Shown: positions 48,884-61,043 of the stretch, one piece after another
Layout: each line of letters begins with the position of its first letter
How positions within the stretch are numbered: the stretch's first letter is position 1
The notes under the pieces: model-generated
Seen by the model: only the letters and a program-made list of their open reading frames with translations
The model's database searches: none
What the model was told of the DNA's origin: nothing
Program-made: the position numbers and the translations under genes
Source: Hydrogenophaga pseudoflava NBRC 102511
GTDB lineage: Bacteria; Pseudomonadota; Gammaproteobacteria; Burkholderiales; Burkholderiaceae_C
Direction: 5' to 3'
DNA: 64,000 bases
Assembly: GCF_001592285.1 (NCBI RefSeq)
Contig: NZ_BCWQ01000009.1
Coordinates: forward strand, 124,001-188,000

Positions 48884-49090
48884 ATGAAGAAATTCTTGAA
48901 CGCGACCCGCCGCTTCCTGCGCGACGAAGAAGGCGTGACCGCCATCGAATACGGCCTGATCGCGGCGCTGATCGCCGTGGTGATCATCGTCGGGGCGGGC
49001 CTGGTGGGGACCAACCTCAACACCCTCTTCACCGACATCTCCGGCTGTCTGCAGTCGCCGCCGGCCGGCGCCATCTGCGGTGGCGGTTGA
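48884..49090 (+). CDS. flp: Flp-type major prepilin
   Basis: 68-residue precursor of the Tad pilus subunit. The leader MKKFLNATRRFLRDEEG ends in Gly before VTAIEYGLIAALIAVVIIVG, with the Glu5-Tyr6 pair of Flp pilins and a hydrophobic helix. Cleavage by the TadV-like peptidase should give a mature pilin of about 51 residues, with a disulfide possible between the two C-terminal cysteines. GGAG at 48874-48877 sets the ATG at 48884. Confidence 0.94.
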   Translation: MKKFLNATRRFLRDEEGVTAIEYGLIAALIAVVIIVGAGLVGTNLNTLFTDISGCLQSPPAGAICGGG

Positions 49091-49203
49091 CCGGTGAGGC
49101 GTGCGGCTGGCCGAGAGCTCCACAAGGCGATCGGTCGGCCCACGCGCCGCAGGCCACAACAGAGTTCCACCGATCCGATCCAGCAAACGCACAGGGCCAC
49201 GCC

Positions 49204-49386
49204 ATGACCAGCCGAAGCTGCGGTCTTCGCCACCGCCAGAGGGGTGTCAGTTCCATCGAGTACGGCCTGCTGGCCGTGCTGATTGCCCTGATCGCCATCG
49301 TCGGCATCGGCGCTCTGGGCAGTGCCAACGGAGCGGGGTGGGACGCCTGGGTGGCCGAGGTCATTGAGGTGATTGCAGGTCCCTGA
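49204..49386 (+). CDS. Second, shorter Flp-like prepilin
   Basis: 60-residue protein MTSRSCGLRHRQRG, then VSSIEYGLLAVLIALIAIVGIGALG: same cleavage context and Glu5-Tyr6 as the flp product, with a short acidic C-terminus (WVAEVIEVIAGP). No strong Shine-Dalgarno. Could be a minor pilin or a priming subunit. It lies between flp and the peptidase gene. Confidence 0.75.
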   Translation: MTSRSCGLRHRQRGVSSIEYGLLAVLIALIAIVGIGALGSANGAGWDAWVAEVIEVIAGP

Positions 49387-49430
49387 GCGGCGGTTTGCAG
49401 CGGTCCATCAACCGGAACCAGGAGTCGAAA

Positions 49431-50039
49431 ATGAACTTCGACACGGCAGCAGGGCAATGGCAGGCGGCGGCGCTGGGTCTGCTGGGCTTGTGTCTGGCGC
49501 TGGCTGCGCTCTCCGATGCACGGCAGCGCCGAATCCCGAACGCGCTGGTGCTGATGACCCTGACGGCCGGTCTGCTGCTGAACGCATTCGGTCCACAACC
49601 CTTCCTGCGCAACCCAGGCCTGTTCTCTCCCTACCCCGGCGCCCTCGGGATCGGCGCCAGTCTGCTGGGGGCGCTGGTGGCCCTGCTGCTGTTCCTTCCC
49701 TTTTATGCGCTGCGCGTCCTGGGTGCCGGTGACGTGAAGCTGCTGGCGGCGGTGGGCGCCTTCGCCGGCCCGGCCGAGAGCCTGAACCTGGCCCTGTGCG
49801 TGCTGCTGGCCGGCGGTGTGCTGGCCCTGGGGCGCATGGCCGCGGCGCGCAACGCCCGCCTGGTGATGCAGAACACGCTGGCCTCGCTGGGGCAGATGCT
49901 GCCGGGTTCGGCCGGCTCCTTCGACGCCAGCACCCAGACCGCCTGGCGCATGCCCTACGCCGTGGCCATCGCGGCCGGCGTGGCGGGCTACGCCGCCTGG
50001 ACCCTGTCGGGCCGGGCACCCTTCATTGCGTTCGGATGA
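49431..50039 (+). CDS. cpaA: Tad prepilin peptidase (TadV/CpaA)
   Basis: Inner-membrane aspartic peptidase that removes prepilin leaders. The 202 residues keep both catalytic aspartates, in LSDARQRRIPN (about residue 29) and GAGDVKL (GxGD motif, about residue 98), with several membrane helices and no methylase domain. AGGAG at 49420-49424 precedes the ATG at 49431. Confidence 0.93.
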   Translation: MNFDTAAGQWQAAALGLLGLCLALAALSDARQRRIPNALVLMTLTAGLLLNAFGPQPFLRNPGLFSPYPGALGIGASLLGALVALLLFLPFYALRVLGAGDVKLLAAVGAFAGPAESLNLALCVLLAGGVLALGRMAAARNARLVMQNTLASLGQMLPGSAGSFDASTQTAWRMPYAVAIAAGVAGYAAWTLSGRAPFIAFG

Positions 50040-50051
50040 GGAGGTCCTGCC

Positions 50052-51413
50052 ATGACCGAACTCAATCTGCCCACGCCCTCGATGCTGCTGCGGCCGCTGC
50101 CCGCCGATCCCTATGGCGACGGCCCCGATGTGGCCGGCCTGCCGGCCAGCTTCCAGATTGATCTGGCGCTGCGCCACCTCTCGCGCAAGGGCGAGCTCAA
50201 GCTGTATGCCCTGGCACAGGCCATGGGCCTGGGCGTGCCGGTGCTCGACCCGCTGCTGGCGCAGATGCGCGCGCTGGCCCTGGTGGAGGTGCCGCGGCGC
50301 GGCACGCTGGAGGGCGACATCAGCTACGCGCTGACCGACCTGGGCCAGCGCCGCGCGCGGATGGCCTTCGACCGCTGCCAGTACGTCGGACCAGCGCCGG
50401 TGCCTCTGGCCGAATATGTGGCCCAGGTGCGCGAGCAGAACAGCCAGCTCATGCCCGTGCGCGAGCTGCGGCTGCGCGCGGTGCTGGCCGGCATGGTGCT
50501 GCCGCCCGCGCTGCTGCCCAGTCTGGGCAGCGCGATGAATTCGGGCAAGGCCATCTACCTGTACGGCGCCAGCGGCACCGGCAAGACCTTCCTGGCCGAG
50601 CACCTGGTGCGCACGCTGGAAGGCCAGATCTGGGTGCCGCACGCGCTCTATGTGGATGGCGAAGTGGTGCAGGTGTTCGACCCGATCGTGCACCGCGAAG
50701 CCCGGGGCCAGGCCTCCATCAGCCCTTGCCATGGCCCCAACCTGCAGCGCGATCTCTCCAGCGACGGCCGCTGGGTGCGCTGCGAGCGGCCCGTGGTGAT
50801 CGCCGGCGGCGAACTCAGCCTGGACATGCTGGACCTGGCCCACGACCCGCACACCCGGGTGCACACGGCGCCGCCCCAGCTCAAGGCCAACAACGGCATC
50901 TTCGTGGTGGACGACCTGGGCCGGCAGCGCGTGAGCCCGGCCGAGCTGATGAACCGCTGGATCGTGCCGCTGGACCGCCACACGGACCACCTCACCCTGA
51001 ACACCGGCACCAAGTTCTCGGTGCCCTTCGATGTGCGGGTGATCTTCTCCAGCAACCTGTCGCCCGACCACCTGGTGGACCCCGCGTTCTCGCGCCGCCT
51101 GGGCTACAAGATCCAGATCGAGCCGCTGGACGCCCGCGGCTACCGCGAGGTGGTGGCCCAGGCCTGTGCCCGCACCGGCGTGCCCGAGGACGCCGAGGGC
51201 GTGGCCCATCTGGTCGACAGCCTGCACCCCCGCCACGGGCAGCCCTACCTGCCGTGCATCCCCTTCGACGTGGTCAGCAAGATCGCCGACCTGGCCCGCT
51301 ACCGCCAGCACCCGCCGCGCCTGACGCCCGACGCCCTGGACTGGGCCTGGCACAACTACTTCGGTCTGCCGGCGCTGGACGCCCCGCATGACCGGCCGCT
51401 TTCAGGAGAGTGA
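50052..51413 (+). CDS. AAA-type ATPase of the Tad locus, non-canonical component
   Basis: 453-residue cytoplasmic protein. Residues 35-110 look like a winged-helix segment (LALRHLSRKGELKLYALAQAMG...DISYALTDLGQRRARM). The ATPase core has Walker A GASGTGKT at 172-179, Walker B GIFVVDDLGRQ, and sensor-like DVRVIFSSNLSPDHL with RRLGYKI. It is not a PilT/GspE-type ATPase and differs from TadA and TadZ, so it is an extra component embedded between cpaA and cpaB. Similar proteins occur in some betaproteobacterial tad loci as I recall; the role is unknown. Confidence 0.85.
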   Translation: MTELNLPTPSMLLRPLPADPYGDGPDVAGLPASFQIDLALRHLSRKGELKLYALAQAMGLGVPVLDPLLAQMRALALVEVPRRGTLEGDISYALTDLGQRRARMAFDRCQYVGPAPVPLAEYVAQVREQNSQLMPVRELRLRAVLAGMVLPPALLPSLGSAMNSGKAIYLYGASGTGKTFLAEHLVRTLEGQIWVPHALYVDGEVVQVFDPIVHREARGQASISPCHGPNLQRDLSSDGRWVRCERPVVIAGGELSLDMLDLAHDPHTRVHTAPPQLKANNGIFVVDDLGRQRVSPAELMNRWIVPLDRHTDHLTLNTGTKFSVPFDVRVIFSSNLSPDHLVDPAFSRRLGYKIQIEPLDARGYREVVAQACARTGVPEDAEGVAHLVDSLHPRHGQPYLPCIPFDVVSKIADLARYRQHPPRLTPDALDWAWHNYFGLPALDAPHDRPLSGE

Positions 51414-51415
51414 AC

Positions 51416-52267
51416 ATGCAAAGCAAACGGGCCATTTTCATGCTGGTGTTGTCCCTGCTGGCGGGCGCTGCGGCGGTCGTGCTGGCTGCCCGCTGGCTCG
51501 GCCAGCAGGCCAGTGGCGAGCGAACGCAGGTGCTGGTGGCCACGCGCGACCTGGACCTCGGGCAGGCGATCTCGCCCGAGATGCTGCAGCCCGTGGCCTG
51601 GCCGTCGGGCAACGTGCCGGCCGGGTCGTTCACCGACCCCCAGCTGCTCGACGGGCGTGTGGTGCGCAACTCCATCTTCAAAGGCGAGCCGGTGCTCGAA
51701 CCCAAGCTGGCGCCCGAGGGCACCAAGGCGGGGCTGGACTCGATCATCAAACCCGGCCACCGCGCGATCTCGGTCAAGGTCAACGAGGTGGTCGGTGTGG
51801 CCGGCTTCCTGGCCCCGGGCAGCTACGTCGACCTGCTGGTCAACATCCGCGACGACCGCGACACCGCGATCTCCCGCGTGGTGCTCGAACGCATCATGGT
51901 GCTGGCGGTGGCGCAGGAAGCGCGCCGCCCCGACGAAACCAAGGCGCGGGTGGTCAACGCGGTGACGCTGGAGGTCACGCCCGAGCAGGCCGAGAAGATC
52001 GACCTGGCGCGCAACGTCGGCACGCTCTCGCTGATGCTGCGCAACCAGGTGGACACCAAGGACGACGTGAACACCGCCGGCGTGCGGCGCGAGGACCTGT
52101 TCGGTGATGCCAAACCGGCCCCCGCACCGGTGGTCGCCGCCGCGCCGGTGCGCCGCGCCGCGCCGCGGCCGGCCCCCCGCCCGGTCGCCGCGGTCGCACC
52201 CGCTGCGCCGCCTGCGCCCACCGTCGAGGTGATCCGCGGCACCCAGAAGTCTTCCGCCAGTTTCTAA
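51416..52267 (+). CDS. cpaB: Flp pilus assembly protein CpaB/RcpC
   Basis: Periplasmic protein with an N-terminal membrane anchor (AIFMLVLSLLAGAAAVVLAARWL) and an SAF domain (QVLVATRDLDLGQAISPEMLQPVAWP), then the RcpC domain (HRAISVKVNEVVGVAGFLAPGSYVDLLV). The tail from about residue 225 is Ala/Pro-rich low complexity. It is thought to work with the secretin. 283 residues from the ATG at 51416, with AGGAG at 51404-51408. Confidence 0.93.
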   Translation: MQSKRAIFMLVLSLLAGAAAVVLAARWLGQQASGERTQVLVATRDLDLGQAISPEMLQPVAWPSGNVPAGSFTDPQLLDGRVVRNSIFKGEPVLEPKLAPEGTKAGLDSIIKPGHRAISVKVNEVVGVAGFLAPGSYVDLLVNIRDDRDTAISRVVLERIMVLAVAQEARRPDETKARVVNAVTLEVTPEQAEKIDLARNVGTLSLMLRNQVDTKDDVNTAGVRREDLFGDAKPAPAPVVAAAPVRRAAPRPAPRPVAAVAPAAPPAPTVEVIRGTQKSSASF

Positions 52268-52280
52268 GGAGCCCGCCACC

Positions 52281-53846
52281 ATGAACACCCCACTGCTGCG
52301 CGTTCTCGGCCTGGCCATGGCCTCGGCCGGCCTGCTGGCCACCGGGCCGGTCCCTGCACAGACTGCGGTCACCCGCGGCGTCACCACCAGCCGGGTACCC
52401 GCGCCTGCACCTGCACCTGCGCCGGCGGCCGACATCAGCACCGACCTGGCCACCGTCGGGCCGTCGATGGACCTGACCGTCGGCAAGTCCACCCTGTTGC
52501 GCATGCCCTCGGAGGTCACGCGCATCTCGCTGGGCAACCCCACCGTTGCCGACGTCACCCTGATCAGCCCGGCCGAGCTGTACCTGCTGGGCAAGGCCTA
52601 CGGATCGACCAACCTGATCGTCTGGCGCAAGGGCGGTGGCGCGACCGCCATCGATGTCAACGTCAACATCGACTACAAGCGCATGGAGGGCAAGCTGCGC
52701 GAACTGCTGCCCGACGAGAAAGGCATCCAGGTGCGGCCGGCGGCCGACTCGGTGATCCTCACCGGCAGCGTCTCCAGCGCGGCCCGGTCGGCCGCCGCCG
52801 AAGAGATTGCCAACGCCTTCGTGCGCGATGTCAACAAGAGCCTGGTGATGCCCGTGGTGGCCGGCGACAACCGCGCCGAGTCAGGCACCAAGCTGAGCGT
52901 CTCCACCAGCAGCGGCGGATCGGGCGTCGCCGCGGCGGCGCGCACGGCGGGCGCCCGGGTGGTCAACCTGCTGGCGGTGGCCGAGGCGCAGCAGGTGATG
53001 CTGGAGGTGACGGTGGCCGAGGTGTCCAAGAAGCTGATGGACAAGATGGGTGTGAACCTGCTGTCCTCGCGCACCAACAACAACTGGACCTACACCATCG
53101 GCAGCGCGTTCGGCGGCGATGGCCGCGGCCTGCTCAGCGCGATCAAGGACCTGGGCCACACCACCATCAACATCGACGCCGAGAAGAGCGACGGCCTGGT
53201 CAAGATCCTGGCCGAACCGAACCTGGTGGCCATCAGCGGCCAGGAGGCCAGCTTCCTGGCCGGCGGCAAGATCTTCATCCCGGTGGCGCGCACCGACAAC
53301 ACCACCGGCGGCTCCACGATCACGCTGGAGGAAAAAGAGTTCGGTGTCGGCGTCAAGTTCACGCCCACCGTGCTCGACGGCGGGCGCATCCACCTCAAGG
53401 TGGCGCCCGAGGTCTCCGAGCTGTCGCAGACCGGCACGCCCTTCACCACGGTGGCCGGCGTCACCGCGATCCTGCCGAGCTTCACCACCCGCCGCGCCGC
53501 CACCACGGTGCAGCTGATGGACGGGCAGAGCCTGGCGATTGCCGGCCTGATCAAGAACAACGCCCGCCAGGCGCTGGACGCCGTGCCCGGCCTGGGCGAG
53601 GTGCCGGTGCTGGGCTCGCTGTTCCGCAGCAACGAGTTCCAGGGCGATCGCAGCGAGCTGATGTTCGTGATCACGCCGCGCCTGGTGAAACAGCTGGACC
53701 CCGGTTACTCGCTGCCCACCGACGGCTACAAGCCGCCCAGCCGGGGTGAGTTCTTCTTCGGCAACCAGATGGAAGGTCAGGGCCGGGCCGACATGCCACC
53801 GGACCGACCCGCCCCCAAGGGCCCTGCCAACCTGGAAGTGAAATAA
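52281..53846 (+). CDS. cpaC: Tad outer-membrane secretin CpaC/RcpA
   Basis: Outer-membrane channel of the Tad machine. The 521 residues have a signal peptide (MNTPLLRVLGLAMASAGLLATGPVPAQ), an Ala/Pro-rich linker, the pilus-specific N-domain (DLTVGKSTLLRMPSEVTRISLGNPTVADV), a BON-like part, and the secretin domain with ISGQEASFLAGGKIFIPV and FGVGVKFTPTVLDGGRIHLKVAPEVSEL. It ends in a short charged tail. Confidence 0.94.
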   Translation: MNTPLLRVLGLAMASAGLLATGPVPAQTAVTRGVTTSRVPAPAPAPAPAADISTDLATVGPSMDLTVGKSTLLRMPSEVTRISLGNPTVADVTLISPAELYLLGKAYGSTNLIVWRKGGGATAIDVNVNIDYKRMEGKLRELLPDEKGIQVRPAADSVILTGSVSSAARSAAAEEIANAFVRDVNKSLVMPVVAGDNRAESGTKLSVSTSSGGSGVAAAARTAGARVVNLLAVAEAQQVMLEVTVAEVSKKLMDKMGVNLLSSRTNNNWTYTIGSAFGGDGRGLLSAIKDLGHTTINIDAEKSDGLVKILAEPNLVAISGQEASFLAGGKIFIPVARTDNTTGGSTITLEEKEFGVGVKFTPTVLDGGRIHLKVAPEVSELSQTGTPFTTVAGVTAILPSFTTRRAATTVQLMDGQSLAIAGLIKNNARQALDAVPGLGEVPVLGSLFRSNEFQGDRSELMFVITPRLVKQLDPGYSLPTDGYKPPSRGEFFFGNQMEGQGRADMPPDRPAPKGPANLEVK

Positions 53847-53858
53847 GGAGCGCCGACC

Positions 53859-54158
53859 ATGAACCGCAACATGCTTTCCCTCCGGACCACCCTGGGCCTG
53901 GGCGCGGTGGTGGCGCTGGCACTGGCCGGCTGCGCCAGTTCCACGCCGGTGCTCGACGCCGGCTTCGGCCAGGCGGTGCGCGACGCCCGCACCGCCCAGA
54001 CGCTCAACCCCAAGGCCAGCGCCGAGAACACGCAGCCGGCTCTGGGCATCGACGGCAAGGCTGCCAGCGAGGCGCAGAAGCGCTACGTCGACTCGTTCAA
54101 GCAGCCGCCCCGCACCTTCGAGATCATCAACATCGGTGGCTCGATCACCGGCGACTGA
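53859..54158 (+). CDS. Small Tad-locus lipoprotein
   Basis: 99-residue predicted lipoprotein: signal peptide with lipobox LAGC (Cys25), then STPVLDAGFGQAVRDARTAQTLNPKAS, GIDGKAASEAQKRYVDSFKQPP and GGSITGD. It occupies the place of cpaD/rcpB, the lipoprotein partner of the secretin in other tad loci, but is far shorter than CpaD. Likely an outer-membrane pilotin or assembly factor for CpaC; function inferred from position only. Confidence 0.8.
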   Translation: MNRNMLSLRTTLGLGAVVALALAGCASSTPVLDAGFGQAVRDARTAQTLNPKASAENTQPALGIDGKAASEAQKRYVDSFKQPPRTFEIINIGGSITGD

Positions 54159-54188: not shown

Positions 54189-55499
54189 ATGCACGCAAGA
54201 CGACTCCGCCGCCGCAGCGCCGTCCGCCAGCGCGGCGCGGTCGCGATCATGCTGGGCATCACGCTGGCGGTGCTGATCGGCTTCGCCGGCCTGGCCCTCG
54301 ACCTCGGGCGCTTCTTCATCATCAAGAGCGAGCTGCAGAACGCGATGGACGCCTGTGCGCTGGCGGCGTCCTCGCAGCTGCGGCCCGGGCAGAACAACCC
54401 CAACGCCCTGACGCGGGCCATCGCCTACGGCCGGGTGTTCACCACCGGCGGCGTGAGCGAGAACCCGCTGGAAGGCAACATCGCCGCCATCCAGAACCGG
54501 GTGTCGTTCCAGGGCCAGGTGGTCAATGTCCAGCCCGAGAACATCACCTTTGCCGAGGACCTGGACGGCCCCTACGTGCCCCTGGCGTCGGCCGATCCGA
54601 ACACCGCGGCCTTCGTGCAGTGCAGCCTGCCGCTGACCGACATCCCGGTGTTTTTCATGCGGGTGCTCAACCCGCTGCTCGACACCCAGACGGTCTCGGC
54701 CATGGCCGCGGCCACGCTGGCGCCGTCGGGCTCGTCGTGCGCGATTCCGGTGGCGGTGTGCAAGGTCGGTGCAGGTTCTACTGCGGCGACGAACTTCGGC
54801 CGCATCGTGGGAGAGTGGCTGCGTCCACCGGCCGGTCCCGGGTCGCCGTATGGCACCGGCAACTTTGGCTGGCTCGACTTCACCCCGCCGGGTGGGGGGG
54901 CCAGCGAACTGGCCAGCCTGCTCACGGGACCCGGGCAATGCGATGCAAGCATCGGCACAACGGTTGACGAGCCGGGGGCCATCTCATCGCTCGAAACGGC
55001 CTGGAATTCGCGTTTCGGCGTCTACCGGAATGGCGCGGGCAACCCGCAGGTGGGCACGGCGCCGCCGGATGTCACGGGCTATGGCTACACCGCGTCCAAC
55101 TGGGCCGTGAGCGTGATGGGTGGGCGGACCATCGGCAATGCCTATGCCGGTTCCTCGGCGGGGGCCAGCAACTACATCACCAATGCGGCGAGCTACGCGC
55201 CCTACCAGGTCGCGCCGCCCAACCCGTACAACCGCATCTCATCCGCACAGCACCAGTCGCTGGGGCGCAACCGCCGGGTGGTGGTGGCGCCGGTGGTCGA
55301 CTGCGAGGTGTGGAATGCCGGCACCGGGCGGCCGGTGATCGAAGGCTTTGCCTGCGTGCTGATGCTCAACCCCATGCTGGGCAGCTCTCCGGTGCCGACC
55401 CTGGAGTTCTTGGGCCTGAGCACGGCGGCGGGCAGCCCCTGCGCCACCAACGGCGAACCCGGCACCTTCGGCCCGCTGGTGCCCCAACTGGTGCAGTGA
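54189..55499 (+). CDS. TadG-like protein with prepilin-type N-terminus
   Basis: 436-residue protein. The N-terminus RQRGAVAIMLGITLAVLIGFAGLALDLGRFFIIKSELQNAMDACALAAS is the TadE/TadG-like segment with a single hydrophobic helix; the rest is predicted periplasmic, rich in Gly, Pro, Asn and containing several cysteines. No VWA domain is evident, unlike the larger TadG proteins. Presumed minor pseudopilin or assembly factor. Confidence 0.85.
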   Translation: MHARRLRRRSAVRQRGAVAIMLGITLAVLIGFAGLALDLGRFFIIKSELQNAMDACALAASSQLRPGQNNPNALTRAIAYGRVFTTGGVSENPLEGNIAAIQNRVSFQGQVVNVQPENITFAEDLDGPYVPLASADPNTAAFVQCSLPLTDIPVFFMRVLNPLLDTQTVSAMAAATLAPSGSSCAIPVAVCKVGAGSTAATNFGRIVGEWLRPPAGPGSPYGTGNFGWLDFTPPGGGASELASLLTGPGQCDASIGTTVDEPGAISSLETAWNSRFGVYRNGAGNPQVGTAPPDVTGYGYTASNWAVSVMGGRTIGNAYAGSSAGASNYITNAASYAPYQVAPPNPYNRISSAQHQSLGRNRRVVVAPVVDCEVWNAGTGRPVIEGFACVLMLNPMLGSSPVPTLEFLGLSTAAGSPCATNGEPGTFGPLVPQLVQ

Positions 55500-55500
55500 C

Positions 55501-55995
55501 ATGGCCCGCACACGCACACCCCAACACGGCGCCATCGCGGTGGAGTTCGCCCTCGTGCTGCTGCCCATGCTGATCCTCTGCTTCGGCATCACCGAGCTCG
55601 GGCGCTCGCTCTATCTCTACAACGGTCTGGTCAAGGCCACCCGGGGCGCGGCGCGCCACCTCTCTCAGCAGAACCTGGCCAGCCCGCCCGCGGGCCAGAC
55701 GGCCGAGGGCATCCGGCTCGACGCCCGTTCGCTGGCGCTGTGCGGCGCCTTCGACTGCTCGGGCCAAGAACCGCTGGTACCCGGCCTCACGCTGGACATG
55801 ATCAGCGTCTGCGACCCGGTGTTGTGCCCGGCGACCCACTCCAACGTCTCGACCGGCGAGGGCACGACCAGCCTGGTGTCGGTGATGGTGGGTGCGGGTG
55901 ACACCGCCTACGCCTTCACCTCGGTCGTGCCCTGGGTGGTGCCGAGCATCAACTACTCGCCGATTGCCATCACCATGGCCGCGAGCACCAACTGA
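55501..55995 (+). CDS. TadE-like pseudopilin 1
   Basis: 164-residue protein with prepilin-type leader TRTPQHG before AIAVEFALVLLPMLILCFGITELGRSLYLYNG. The Glu at position 5 of the predicted mature chain (AIAVEF) and the helix match TadE/TadF pseudopilins, which are cut by the Tad peptidase. Starts one base after the TadG-like gene's stop. Two cysteine pairs in the periplasmic part. Confidence 0.9.
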   Translation: MARTRTPQHGAIAVEFALVLLPMLILCFGITELGRSLYLYNGLVKATRGAARHLSQQNLASPPAGQTAEGIRLDARSLALCGAFDCSGQEPLVPGLTLDMISVCDPVLCPATHSNVSTGEGTTSLVSVMVGAGDTAYAFTSVVPWVVPSINYSPIAITMAASTN

Positions 55996-56003
55996 GAGCG
56001 GCC

Positions 56004-56477
56004 ATGGTGCAGATCCTTCACCCTTGTGCCCGCCGCCGCAGCGCACAGCGTGGTGTGGCGGCGGTCGAATTTGCCATCGTCGCGCTGCTGTTCTTCACCC
56101 TGCTGCTGGGCATCATGGAGTTCGGCCGCTGGCTGTTCGTGCTCAACGGCGCCAACGAGGCCACGCGCCTGGGTGCACGGCTGGCGGTGGTCTGCAGCAT
56201 CGAGGACGCGGACGACCTGACCGGCATCCGCGCCCGCATGAGCGACATGACCGGTGGCGGCGTGCCGGCCGACCGCATGGTGCTGGACTACGCGCCGGCC
56301 GGTTGCACCGTGGACAACTGCCGCACCGTGACCGCGCGCATCGTGGGCGCGCAGCTCACGCCCCACATCCCGTTCTTCGGCATCCCGTTCCCGATTCCCG
56401 AGTTTCCGACCAGCCTGCCGCGCGAATACATGAACAGCGCCGGCAACCCGGTGTGTCCTGTGGCGCCCGGTCCCTGA
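56004..56477 (+). CDS. TadE-like pseudopilin 2
   Basis: 157-residue paralogue-type pseudopilin: RSAQRG, then VAAVEFAIVALLFFTLLLGIMEFGRWLFVLNGANEATRLGARLAVVC, giving Glu5-Phe6 after cleavage. Cysteines in VVCSIED, AGCTVDNCR and NPVCPV suggest disulfides. Eight bases separate it from the previous gene. Together with that one it probably fills the TadE/TadF roles. Confidence 0.9.
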   Translation: MVQILHPCARRRSAQRGVAAVEFAIVALLFFTLLLGIMEFGRWLFVLNGANEATRLGARLAVVCSIEDADDLTGIRARMSDMTGGGVPADRMVLDYAPAGCTVDNCRTVTARIVGAQLTPHIPFFGIPFPIPEFPTSLPREYMNSAGNPVCPVAPGP

Positions 56478-56514: not shown

Positions 56515-57687
56515 ATGACCGCCAAGTTCTCCGTCATCTGTGCCACCGCCGACCAACGCGAGCGGGTGTTGCGCGAGTGTTCCAGCCCGCCAGGGGTGGC
56601 CATCACCGTGCATGTGGGCGGCGCCCGCAACGTGCTGTCCGTGATGCAGAAGGAGCAGCCCGACGTGCTGCTGCTGGACCTGGACCAGCCCGATGAATCG
56701 GCCTTCGAGCTGATCGACGCGGCCACCCAGCGCATCCCCGGCGTGCTGGTGCTGCTGGTGAGCGCCGATGCCTCGATGGCCGCGCTCAAGCGGGCCATGC
56801 GCGCGGGCGTGCGCGACGTGTTGCAGGCACCGCTGTCCAGCGACACGCTGAAGCTGGCGCAGGACTACCTGCGCGACGCGCGGGCCAACACCTCGCGCTT
56901 CTCCGACGCGACCGGCGAGGTGCACGCCTTCATGTCCGCCAAGGGCGGCTGCGGCGCGACCTTCCTGGCCACCAATCTGGCGTACCTGCTGGCCAAGAGC
57001 GGCCGCCGTGTGCTGCTGATCGACCTCAACCTGTACTTCGGCGACGCCGCCACCTACCTGACCGACCGCAAGCCGCCGGCCAGCGTGGTGGACCTGGCGC
57101 GGCAGGCGCGGCGGCTGGACTTCGCGCTGCTGGACGCCAGTGTGCTCAAGGTGCGCGACAACCTGGACCTGCTGGCCGCGCCTGAGCTGCCCTACCAGCT
57201 GGAGGACATGACCGCCGACAACGTGGCCGCCATGATCGGCCTGGCGCGCGCCGAATACGACTTCATCCTGCTGGACCTGGGCCGCACCATGGACCCGGCC
57301 ACCGTCAAGGCGCTGGACATGGCCGAGCGGGTGGTGCTGGTGGTCGAGCAGACCCTGCCGGCACTCAAGGACGCGCGCCGTCTGGTCACCGTGTTCGAAG
57401 GGCTGGACTACCGCAAGGACAAGCTGCGCCTGGTGATCAACGGCTACGCCAGGGGCGCGCTGATCCGCCCCGAGGACGTCGAGAAGAGCGTCGGCCTGAA
57501 GGTGGACCGGCTGGTGCCGGCCAGCGAGGAGGCGGTGCTCAACGCCATCAACCGGGGCGACCCGCTGCCGCGCATCACGCCCCGCGATCCGGCGGCGCGC
57601 GCCCTGCAGCAGTGGTCACAGGACCTGTCCCCGGTCGCCGTCCAAACCGGCAAGAGCTGGTTTTCCACCCTGACCCGCGGCATGTGA
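56515..57687 (+). CDS. cpaE: TadZ/CpaE, receiver-MinD-like localisation ATPase
   Basis: 390-residue cytoplasmic protein that places the Tad machine in the cell. Residues 1-125 form an atypical receiver domain ([14 protein letters not shown]). The ParA/MinD-like domain starts with the deviant Walker [15 protein letters not shown] at Lys143, where the second lysine of KGGxGK(T/S) is Ala148. Later conserved parts are [29 protein letters not shown] and [23 protein letters not shown]. Confidence 0.93.
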
Positions 57688-57736: not shown

Positions 57737-59098
<1,362 letters not shown>

Positions 59099-59102
59099 TG
59101 CC

Positions 59103-60080
59103 ATGAACCTCAGCCTGGCCCTGTTCGTCCTGCTGGGTTTTCTGGCGGTGGTGCTGCTGCTGGAGGGCCTGTACGTCTACTGGAACGACACCAAGAGCCC
59201 CGAGGTGCGGCGCGTGGAAGAGCGCCTGCGCGCGATCTCCGCCGGTGGCCAGGTGGGCGGCGGCGAGTTCAAGCTGCTGCGGCAGCGCCTGCTCAGCGAG
59301 AGCCCGGCGGTGCAGCGCCTGCTGCTGAGCATCCCGCGCGCCCACCAGCTGGACCGTCTGATGCAGCAGGCGGGCGACCACAAGACGGTCTCGCACCTGC
59401 TGGGCATCTGCGCCATGCTGTTCTTCGGTGGCCTGCTCGTGGGGCTGCTGCTGCGCTGGCCCTGGTTCCTGCTGCTGGGCGTGTCGGGGCTGCTGGCCCT
59501 GGTGCCGCTGCTGCTGCTCGTGCGCCGCCGCAACAAGCGGCTGCAGAAGATCGAGGCGCAACTGCCCGACGCCATGGACCTGATGTCGCGCGCGCTGCGC
59601 GCGGGCCATGCCTTTCCGGTGGCGCTGGCGATGGTGGGCACCGAATCGCCGCAACCGATTGCCAGCGAGTTCCGCATCACCGCCGACGAGGTGGGCTTCG
59701 GGGTGTCGGTGGACAACGCGCTGAACAACCTGGCCGCGCGCGTGCCCAGCGCCGACGTGCGCTACTTCGTGATGGCGGTGATCATCCAGCGCGAAACCGG
59801 CGGCAACCTGGCCGAGCTGCTGGGCAAGCTGGCCGAACTGGTGCGCGAGCGCTTCAAGCTGTTCGCCAAGGTGCGGGTGCTGGCCGCCGAGGGCAAGCTC
59901 TCGGCCTGGATCCTCACGCTGCTGCCGTTCTGCGTGGCCGCGGTGATCGCCATCCTCAACCCCGGCTATCTGAAGGTGCTGTTCACCGACGAGATGGGTC
60001 TGCTGCTGGTCTATGGCGCGCTGGCCATGATGGCGGTGGGCATCCTGGCCATGTGGCGCATCATCGACATCAAGGTCTGA
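59103..60080 (+). CDS. tadB: TadB inner-membrane platform protein
   Basis: 325-residue membrane protein of the GspF/TadB type. One N-terminal helix (ALFVLLGFLAVVLLLEGLYVYW), a cytoplasmic domain with LPDAMDLMSRALRAGHAFPVALAMVG and ADVRYFVMAVIIQRETGGNLAELLGKLAELVRERF, and further helices. With TadC forms the platform driven by TadA. Starts 4 bases after cpaF. Confidence 0.94.
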   Translation: MNLSLALFVLLGFLAVVLLLEGLYVYWNDTKSPEVRRVEERLRAISAGGQVGGGEFKLLRQRLLSESPAVQRLLLSIPRAHQLDRLMQQAGDHKTVSHLLGICAMLFFGGLLVGLLLRWPWFLLLGVSGLLALVPLLLLVRRRNKRLQKIEAQLPDAMDLMSRALRAGHAFPVALAMVGTESPQPIASEFRITADEVGFGVSVDNALNNLAARVPSADVRYFVMAVIIQRETGGNLAELLGKLAELVRERFKLFAKVRVLAAEGKLSAWILTLLPFCVAAVIAILNPGYLKVLFTDEMGLLLVYGALAMMAVGILAMWRIIDIKV

Positions 60081-60083
60081 ACC

Positions 60084-61043
60084 ATGACCGAACTCACAGG
60101 CTTTCAAGGGTTGCTGCTGGGGCTGGTGTTCCTGGCGGTGGTGGGGCTGGTGCTGGGGCTGGGCCTGTGGTTCAGCCGCCGATCCGGCGTGCAGGCGCGG
60201 CTGAGCCAGCTGGGGGGTGAGGCGGAGAAAGCCCCCAGCCTGGAGGGCAACGCCGAATGGCACGCCAAGGTGGTCAAGGCGGTGGGGCCGATGGCCAAGC
60301 TGTCGGCGCCCAAGGAAGGCTGGGAACACTCGAGCCTGCGGCTGCGGTTCATGCACGCGGGCCTGCGCGAGAAAAGCTGGCCGGCGCTGTTCTTCGCGGC
60401 CAAAACCGTGCTCGCGCTGGGGCTGCCGGGGCTGTTCATGGTGGGCGCCGGCATGGCGGGGCTCAAGCTGGACACGCCGGTGCAGGTCTTCCTGCTGCTG
60501 CTGTTCGCCGCGTTGGGCTACTACCTGCCCAACGGCGTGCTCGCCCGGCTGGCCGACTGGCGCATGACCGAGGTGCAGGACGGTCTGCCCGATGCCCTGG
60601 ACCTGATGACCGTGTGCGTGGAGGCCGGGCTGGGCCTGGACGCCGCCATGAACCGCGCGGCCAGCGAGATCGGCCTGCGCAGCGAGGCCCTGCAGGAAGA
60701 ACTCAACCTGGTGGCCCTGGAGCTGCGCGTGGGCGTCAAGCGCGAGCTGGCGCTGCGCAACCTCGCGCTGCGCACCGGTGTGGACGACGTGGCCTCCTTC
60801 GTCGCCATGATCGTGCAGGCCGACCGCTTCGGCACCAACGTGGCCGAGGCGCTGCGCATCCAGGGCGAGACCATGCGCACGCACCGGCGCCTGCGCGCGG
60901 AAGAGCGCGCCGCCAAGATCCCGCTGAAGCTGCTGTTCCCGCTGATCTTCTTCATCTTCCCGTCGCTGATGCTGGTGCTCATGGGGCCGGCCATGATCAG
61001 CATCTACCGTGTCCTGCTGCCCACCATGGGTGGCAATGGCTGA
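60084..61043 (+). CDS. tadC: TadC inner-membrane platform protein
   Basis: 319-residue second platform protein. It shows LPDALDLMTVCVEAGLGLDAAMNRAASEIG, ALRTGVDDVASFVAMIVQADRFGTNVAEALRIQGETMRTHRRLRAEERAAKIPLKLLFPLIFFIFPSLMLVLMGPAMI, all typical of TadC. Three bases separate it from tadB, so the pair is coupled. Confidence 0.94.
   Translation: MTELTGFQGLLLGLVFLAVVGLVLGLGLWFSRRSGVQARLSQLGGEAEKAPSLEGNAEWHAKVVKAVGPMAKLSAPKEGWEHSSLRLRFMHAGLREKSWPALFFAAKTVLALGLPGLFMVGAGMAGLKLDTPVQVFLLLLFAALGYYLPNGVLARLADWRMTEVQDGLPDALDLMTVCVEAGLGLDAAMNRAASEIGLRSEALQEELNLVALELRVGVKRELALRNLALRTGVDDVASFVAMIVQADRFGTNVAEALRIQGETMRTHRRLRAEERAAKIPLKLLFPLIFFIFPSLMLVLMGPAMISIYRVLLPTMGGNG

Follow-up and report, generated by a model that had tools for sequence, protein, structure and literature searches.

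Gene X lies in the window, the 64,000-nucleotide stretch of the Hydrogenophaga pseudoflava NBRC 102511 genome analysed here. It is encoded, distributed and inherited together with the Tad machinery, and it keeps the AAA+ catalytic motifs that were tested. X is the name given here to a winged-helix and AAA+ ATPase gene of 453 codons. It is probably a working part of the Tad machine, with a predicted function, and not a quirk of one lineage, since it travels with one Tad branch across many Proteobacteria. The preferred reading makes X part of the Tad (type IVc) pilus machines of one phylogenetic branch, in which it would act as a cytoplasmic AAA+ remodeller. A probability of about 0.5 was assigned to this reading.

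Gene X and the tad locus of the window

X starts with ATG and was placed within a complete tad cluster. The features of the locus were as follows.

49395..50039, plus strand: CpaA/TadV prepilin peptidase, directly 5' of X (PF01478, E 4e-16)
50040..50044, plus strand: Shine-Dalgarno-like GGAGG of X, 7 nt 5' of the ATG (sequence read)
50052..51413, plus strand: X, winged-helix and AAA+ ATPase, 453 amino acids (ORF, Pfam, conserved motifs, dN/dS, family profile)
51416..52267, plus strand: CpaB/RcpC, directly 3' of X (PF16976, E 2e-30; likely ATG start, ORF listed from GTG 51410)
52281..53846, plus strand: CpaC/RcpA secretin (PF00263, PF13629)
54189..56477, plus strand: TadG, TadE and TadF-type minor pilin genes, three ORFs (PF13400, PF07811)
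56515..57687, plus strand: TadZ/CpaE (PF13614 and receiver-like PF00072)
57737..59098, plus strand: TadA/CpaF motor ATPase (PF00437, E 4e-64)
59103..61043, plus strand: TadB and TadC platform proteins (ORFs named by position; seeds of the TadB and TadC profiles, which find the same pair in relatives)

The gene order is Flp pilins, CpaA, X, CpaB, CpaC, a small lipoprotein-like ORF, three TadE/TadG-type ORFs, TadZ, TadA, TadB, TadC and TadD. Pilin, peptidase, CpaB, secretin, TadZ, TadA, TadB and TadC are all co-encoded with X. The initial annotation had placed X between the peptidase and cpaB genes and this holds at nucleotide level, with the cpaA stop codon (50037-50039) 12 nt before X and the likeliest cpaB ATG (51416) 2 nt past it. 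The dN/dS values of X against three congeners were 0.31, 0.35 and 0.41, indicating purifying selection in the X frame. Against two distant relatives they were 0.53 and 0.82, where silent sites are near saturation. On the basis of dN/dS and of full-length relatives in 65 of 397 genomes X was taken as truly coding and not a chance frame.

An antisense open frame of 786 amino acids (49029-51389, minus strand) covers X and the start of the tad operon. It is GC-rich and is best read as a shadow ORF. The small lipoprotein-like ORF between the secretin and TadG genes (53859-54158) had a weak match to DUF3613 (16.4, cut-off 25).

The Walker A lysine was missing from TadZ in all 116 readable proteins, a set that includes the window protein (56515-57687), and ten more were unreadable. 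X as a stand-in for a catalytically dead TadZ was considered and rejected. The lysine is missing with X (68/68 readable, 1 unreadable) and without it (48/48 readable, 9 unreadable), so the substitute idea does not discriminate.

Motifs, predicted fold and family of the X protein

The initial annotation had described a 453-residue ATPase with a winged-helix N-terminus and Walker motifs. This description was confirmed, as the ORF is intact, the motifs are invariant and the predicted N-terminal fold is MarR-like. The features of the protein are given below. Motif counts refer to 86 X family sequences, many of them closely related to each other.

50142..50381, plus strand: N-terminal MarR-like winged helix, residues 31-110 (AlphaFold2; VIA-align Z 12.7, rmsd 1.7, 77 residues to 3voe_A)
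50565..50588, plus strand: Walker A GASGTGKT, residues 172-179 (GxxGxGK[TS] in 86/86 family members)
50898..50927, plus strand: Walker B and following motif IFVVDDLGRQ, residues 283-292 (DDxGRQ in 86/86)
51054..51056, plus strand: probable sensor-1 asparagine N335 (N in 86/86; role from position)
51093..51098, plus strand: putative arginine fingers R348 and R349 (RR in 86/86; role from position)

The winged helix was modelled by AlphaFold2 at block pLDDT 65-95. Two AlphaFold2 models of the AAA core had pLDDT values of 51.6 and 54.8, which is low confidence. The alignments supplied to AlphaFold2 contained 16 closely related X sequences. A Foldseek search with the AAA core model returned nothing at E<=1e-3, and its top rows were RuvB and other AAA+ rings. 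At position 405, the best sensor-2 candidate, 35 of the 86 sequences have R and the window protein has F, in a lid where the alignment is uncertain. No canonical sensor-2 arginine is claimed for X from this 86-sequence alignment.

AAA_16 was the sole Pfam match of X over its cut-off (35.3 vs 32.6 bits), and no NCBIfam profile exceeded its cut-off for the window protein. Searched against the PDB as a single sequence X gave non-significant matches only (best E 0.17). A 25-sequence X profile matched 387 PDB sequences at E<=0.1. These matches covered the P-loop stretch, and the rings of Midasin, Sec18 and p97 ranked best. The nearest family profiles were of the IteA, AAA_16, Mg-chelatase, sigma-54 and MoxR types, nearly all below their cut-offs. 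By its sequence X is an AAA+ ring-type ATPase, previously uncharacterised, for which a hexamer and ATP hydrolysis are predicted. It had been described as neither TadA, TadZ nor a PilT-type motor, and the profile searches agree. X had no match at E<=0.1 to PF00437 T2SSE, the family of the TadA, PilT and VirB11 motors, or to PF13614 and PF01656, those of TadZ and ParA/MinD. The TadA and TadZ proteins of the locus do match their families.

The most hydrophobic part of X is a 19-residue stretch from residue 144 with a Kyte-Doolittle mean of 1.55. A cytoplasmic location is likely because this value falls just below the usual limit of 1.6. A MoxR-vWA pairing of X with TadG was dropped, as TadG is outside the cytoplasm.

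Distribution of X and its association with tad loci

X was found full-length as 67 copies in 65 of 397 Pseudomonadota genomes, representing 40 of 231 genera. A 13-sequence X profile was used at a threshold of 1e-10 and all matches had E <= 1e-110. A diverse 25-sequence profile at a threshold of 0.001 returned the identical 67 copies at E <= 1e-146. The next-best match fell to 1.4e-7 and, like the others listed, covered the P-loop stretch. The X family is sharply bounded. These genome scans covered Pseudomonadota and an independent scan of genome contigs covered close relatives. X had been proposed as specific to the lineage of the window. This did not survive the comparison, as X occurs in 40 of 231 Pseudomonadota genera, yet in 4 of 36 genomes of its own genus. 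Those four are among the 12 genomes of the genus with cpaB, and the other eight have cpaB without X.

X lies within a tad locus in 59 of the 65 X-bearing genomes of the phylum sample. These neighbourhoods were read with tad-gene profiles built from the window and its relatives. Three gene orders were present among the 59 genomes: CpaA-X-CpaB in 25, X after CpaA as the last recognised tad gene in 32, and X after TadC in two. The independent contig scan found X between CpaA and CpaB in 16 of 16 loci. The question raised at the outset, whether homologues lie mostly outside tad loci, was thus answered in the opposite sense by both scans, and the proposal that X belongs to the pilus machine was strengthened. 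cpaB (PF16976) was present in 64 of the 65 genomes with X compared to 199 of 397 overall (Fisher p 1e-20, the genomes being non-independent). The converse fails, as 135 of the 199 cpaB genomes are without X. Tad pili generally therefore do not need X. The eight copies in the other six genomes are away from tad loci, and one genome (G076) has X and neither cpaB nor tadA.

X was also detected by tblastn in 75 plasmid records, of which 57 were Rhizobium. A tad locus was present in all four of the plasmid loci examined. X is placed after TadC in rhizobial loci.

A number of further observations were made on these loci. In rhizobial plasmid tad loci with X an L,D-transpeptidase gene lies between a response-regulator/pilus-assembly gene and the CpaF gene (L091:4983-5546, L093:4969-5532). 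Six tad loci of family f70 (L128-L133) read CpaA-CpaB-CpaC-TadZ-TadB-TadC, with no TadA match within the stretch fetched.

TadA phylogeny and co-inheritance

A TadA tree was constructed from 111 rows, 62 of loci with X and 49 of loci without. The X label needs 4 changes on this tree compared to a mean of 36.6 after shuffling. One branch (SH-aLRT 91-92) holds all 62 X-bearing loci and six X-less loci, and the other 43 X-less loci fall outside it. Of the six, one is from G068, which has orphan copies of X, and one from G424, which has X in its other tad locus. The remaining four are from genomes in which the 13-sequence profile found no X (G250, G245, G263 and G214). In G068, G102 and G251 X lies apart from tad, yet the TadA of these genomes is inside the X-bearing branch. 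The tad locus of G251 stops at CpaA, where its relatives continue to X. Counterexamples were the placed TadA proteins of G354 (three copies) and G327 (one), which fall in the X-less branch. A fourth TadA match of G354, partial and 40% identical, was left unplaced.

Both TadA trees were quick searches without bootstrap. Excluded from the 111-row tree were ten Duganella loci that are nearly identical, the duplicate L183 and all loci lacking a 400-bit TadA match. These last comprised ten X-less loci, X-bearing L016, L054 and L055, and the orphan loci. In the second tree 36 more rows were thinned out and five TadA rows from orphan genomes were added. X-less loci were picked for family spread among the cpaB genomes listed and not randomly.

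Distances were compared for the 45 loci having all seven genes, orphans excluded. The correlations were 0.980 for X-TadA, 0.981 for X-TadB, 0.963 for X-TadZ, 0.986 for TadA-TadB and 0.888 for X-CpaA. The genes of a locus have a common history, so these correlations show co-inheritance and not contact, and cannot pick out a partner. The mean p-distances over the same loci were 0.348 for TadA, 0.521 for CpaC, 0.528 for X, 0.595 for TadB, 0.614 for TadC, 0.643 for TadZ and 0.688 for CpaA. By this measure the conservation of X is close to that of the secretin CpaC and exceeds that of TadB, TadZ, TadC and CpaA.

Proposed role of X

Under the preferred reading X would act as a ring ATPase in the cytoplasm. 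Its winged-helix N-domain would dock onto a protein of the Tad machine, and its ATP cycle would remodel or load a cytoplasmic Tad component. The leading candidate targets are TadA/TadB or TadZ, because X changes in step with them in this branch. The activity of X may be tuned by c-di-GMP, as suggested by the orphan copies only. Remodelling is, we infer, the best-supported mechanism and local regulation its main rival.

In that rival X would be a local transcription regulator, whose MarR-like winged helix binds the flp/tad promoter while the AAA+ domain serves as a nucleotide switch. Residues 31-110 have a MarR-type fold, X is located inside the operon it would control, and the window protein itself carries RR in its wing. 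The DNA-binding-type front end of the initial annotation is weakly supported, by the fold and by the wing of the window protein, which may bind DNA. The wing is not conserved in the family, as a dibasic wing was present in 8 of the 86 X proteins and missing in 78, compared to 11 of 11 parsable MarR-type wings from the same genome. This comparison drew on 16 of 21 MarR matches, 11 of them parsable, with a one-residue offset between the starts of the two cuts. The recognition helix of X had a mean charge of -0.7, with MarR helices parsable for comparison in 1 of 16 only. The winged helix is also among the least conserved parts of X, with a mean of 0.46, the insert and lid at 0.47 and the stretch from Walker B to the arginine fingers at 0.69. 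The sigma-54 AAA+ profile was weakly matched by 3 of the 25 members of the diverse set. A sigma-54 activator was rejected, as GAFTGA occurred in 0 of 86 sequences and PF00158 scored 15.5 bits, below the cut-off of 20.2. A regulatory role is possible and on this evidence unlikely.

X might instead serve the prepilin peptidase step (CpaA/TadV), either as an unfoldase or as a chaperone of prepilins. In favour, the first tad gene recognised upstream of X is CpaA in 57 of 59 tad-borne cases of the phylum sample and in two operon layouts. This support is weakened by eight loci of family f80 (L054, L055, L061, L062, L065, L088, L113 and L114), in which about 1.4-1.8 kb extra lies between CpaA and X. 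The position after TadC in rhizobial loci also argues against it, as does the X-CpaA correlation, lower than the 0.98 for TadA/TadB, although CpaA tracks all genes less well. X is also missing from 135 of 199 cpaB genomes. A part in prepilin processing appears improbable.

The orphan copies bear on another reading, in which X would relay c-di-GMP status to the Tad machine as its signal-responsive brake or activator. In three genomes of genus g128 X lies outside tad loci, in tandem in two of them (L101:8316-11358, L104:8671-11663, L105:8622-10115). Four of these five copies carry N-terminally the MshE-related cyclic di-GMP-binding motif NF053729 of NCBIfam, at 49.4-55.9 bits (cut-off 38). In two of the three loci (L101 and L104) X adjoins a gene with GAF and HD_5 domains, which suggests an HD-GYP-like phosphodiesterase. 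Against the relay, neither the window protein nor 23 of the 24 other members of the diverse set had NF053729, and the Pfam profile PF05157 MshEN matched none of the g128 copies. None of these copies is in a tad locus, moreover, and cpaB and tadA are both missing from one of the three genomes. The relay is quite improbable as an account of X.

That X is a passenger gene or defence ATPase that merely happens to occupy tad loci is very improbable: IteA/IetA, an anti-phage ATPase, is the profile that most members match (16/25 at E<=0.001; PADLOC IetA E 0.0005) and G076 retains X without cpaB or tadA, but the IteA scores were 19.8-41.4 bits against a cut-off of 510, the sequences aligning best around the P-loop or the sensor region, and neither tracking of the TadA branch nor retention of every motif would be expected of a passenger. 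A defence ATPase was rejected separately, the PADLOC and NCBIfam matches being weak and the window protein scoring 19.8 bits on the IteA profile. A phage origin was also rejected. None of 50,697 phage records matched, none of 30 viral-contig pattern matches was confirmed as a relative, and the seven PHROG matches, six of which lay at the P-loop, were weak (best 1.1e-5).

If X is a remodeller of the Tad machine, a more specific and decidedly speculative model can be put forward. One Tad branch would run on three nucleotide-binding proteins in place of two. These would be the TadA motor, TadZ as the polar hub and a dedicated AAA+ remodeller by which the motor-platform complex is reset, for example as a TadA extension/retraction switch. 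c-di-GMP would be an input in copies with the MshE-type motif.

Comparison with known systems

The usual description of Tad pili has a single motor with two functions, TadA/CpaF, and TadZ as the hub. TadZ and TadA are P-loop proteins of the same operon as X and differ from it in Pfam family. MarR-type regulators share the winged-helix fold with residues 31-110 of X. They differ in that the wing arginines are not conserved in X and its domain is fused to AAA+. IetA/IteA (NCBIfam NF042959) is related to X at the level of the profile matches above, and no sign of a defence role of X was found.

The full-text literature search, as far as the sources were available, found no named family for X, no mutant and no piliation phenotype or tested function. 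The available text of PMC7494200, PMC10934763, PMC12075869, PMC11322086 and PMC8461304 held nothing on X. An X-like component is not named in the Tad model of PMC6668835 in the portion available. X is thus a testable gene for how Tad extension, retraction and localisation are switched, because it follows one Tad branch, is conserved about as well as the secretin and is unnamed in that part of the model.

Genes like X are already in print as annotation. In Vibrio parahaemolyticus VP2426, a "Predicted ATPase with chaperone activity", comes after two TadV/CpaA entries and before RcpC/CpaB in the parts of PMC7859628 available. It was lowered along with the tad genes in a qseC mutant (PMC7859628). 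From its position VP2426 would be the counterpart of X, for which that paper gives annotation and expression. In the Aliivibrio salmonicida tad operon rcpC directly follows tadV in the table available from PMC6420764, and this operon appears to be a natural X-less case.

In Pseudomonas PSF113_4189 is listed as an ATPase of the Flp/Tad type B locus and is distinct from tadA, as described in silico only in the available sections of PMC7716237. That paper counts it among the proteins in which Tad types A and B differ. X separates CpaA from CpaB in Pseudomonas loci L017 and L095-L097, an arrangement that the F113 locus tags would fit. PSF113_4189 is linked to X by annotation and locus tag. As far as these sources go, the branch-wide link to Tad is what is added here to the annotations of PSF113_4189 and VP2426. 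PMC7716237 treats PSF113_4189 as part of one Pseudomonas Tad type, whereas here X is the mark of a Tad branch that spans three gene orders in Pseudomonadota. X could thus serve as a marker to sort Tad loci into types across Pseudomonadota, beyond the Pseudomonas type A/type B split (PMC7716237).
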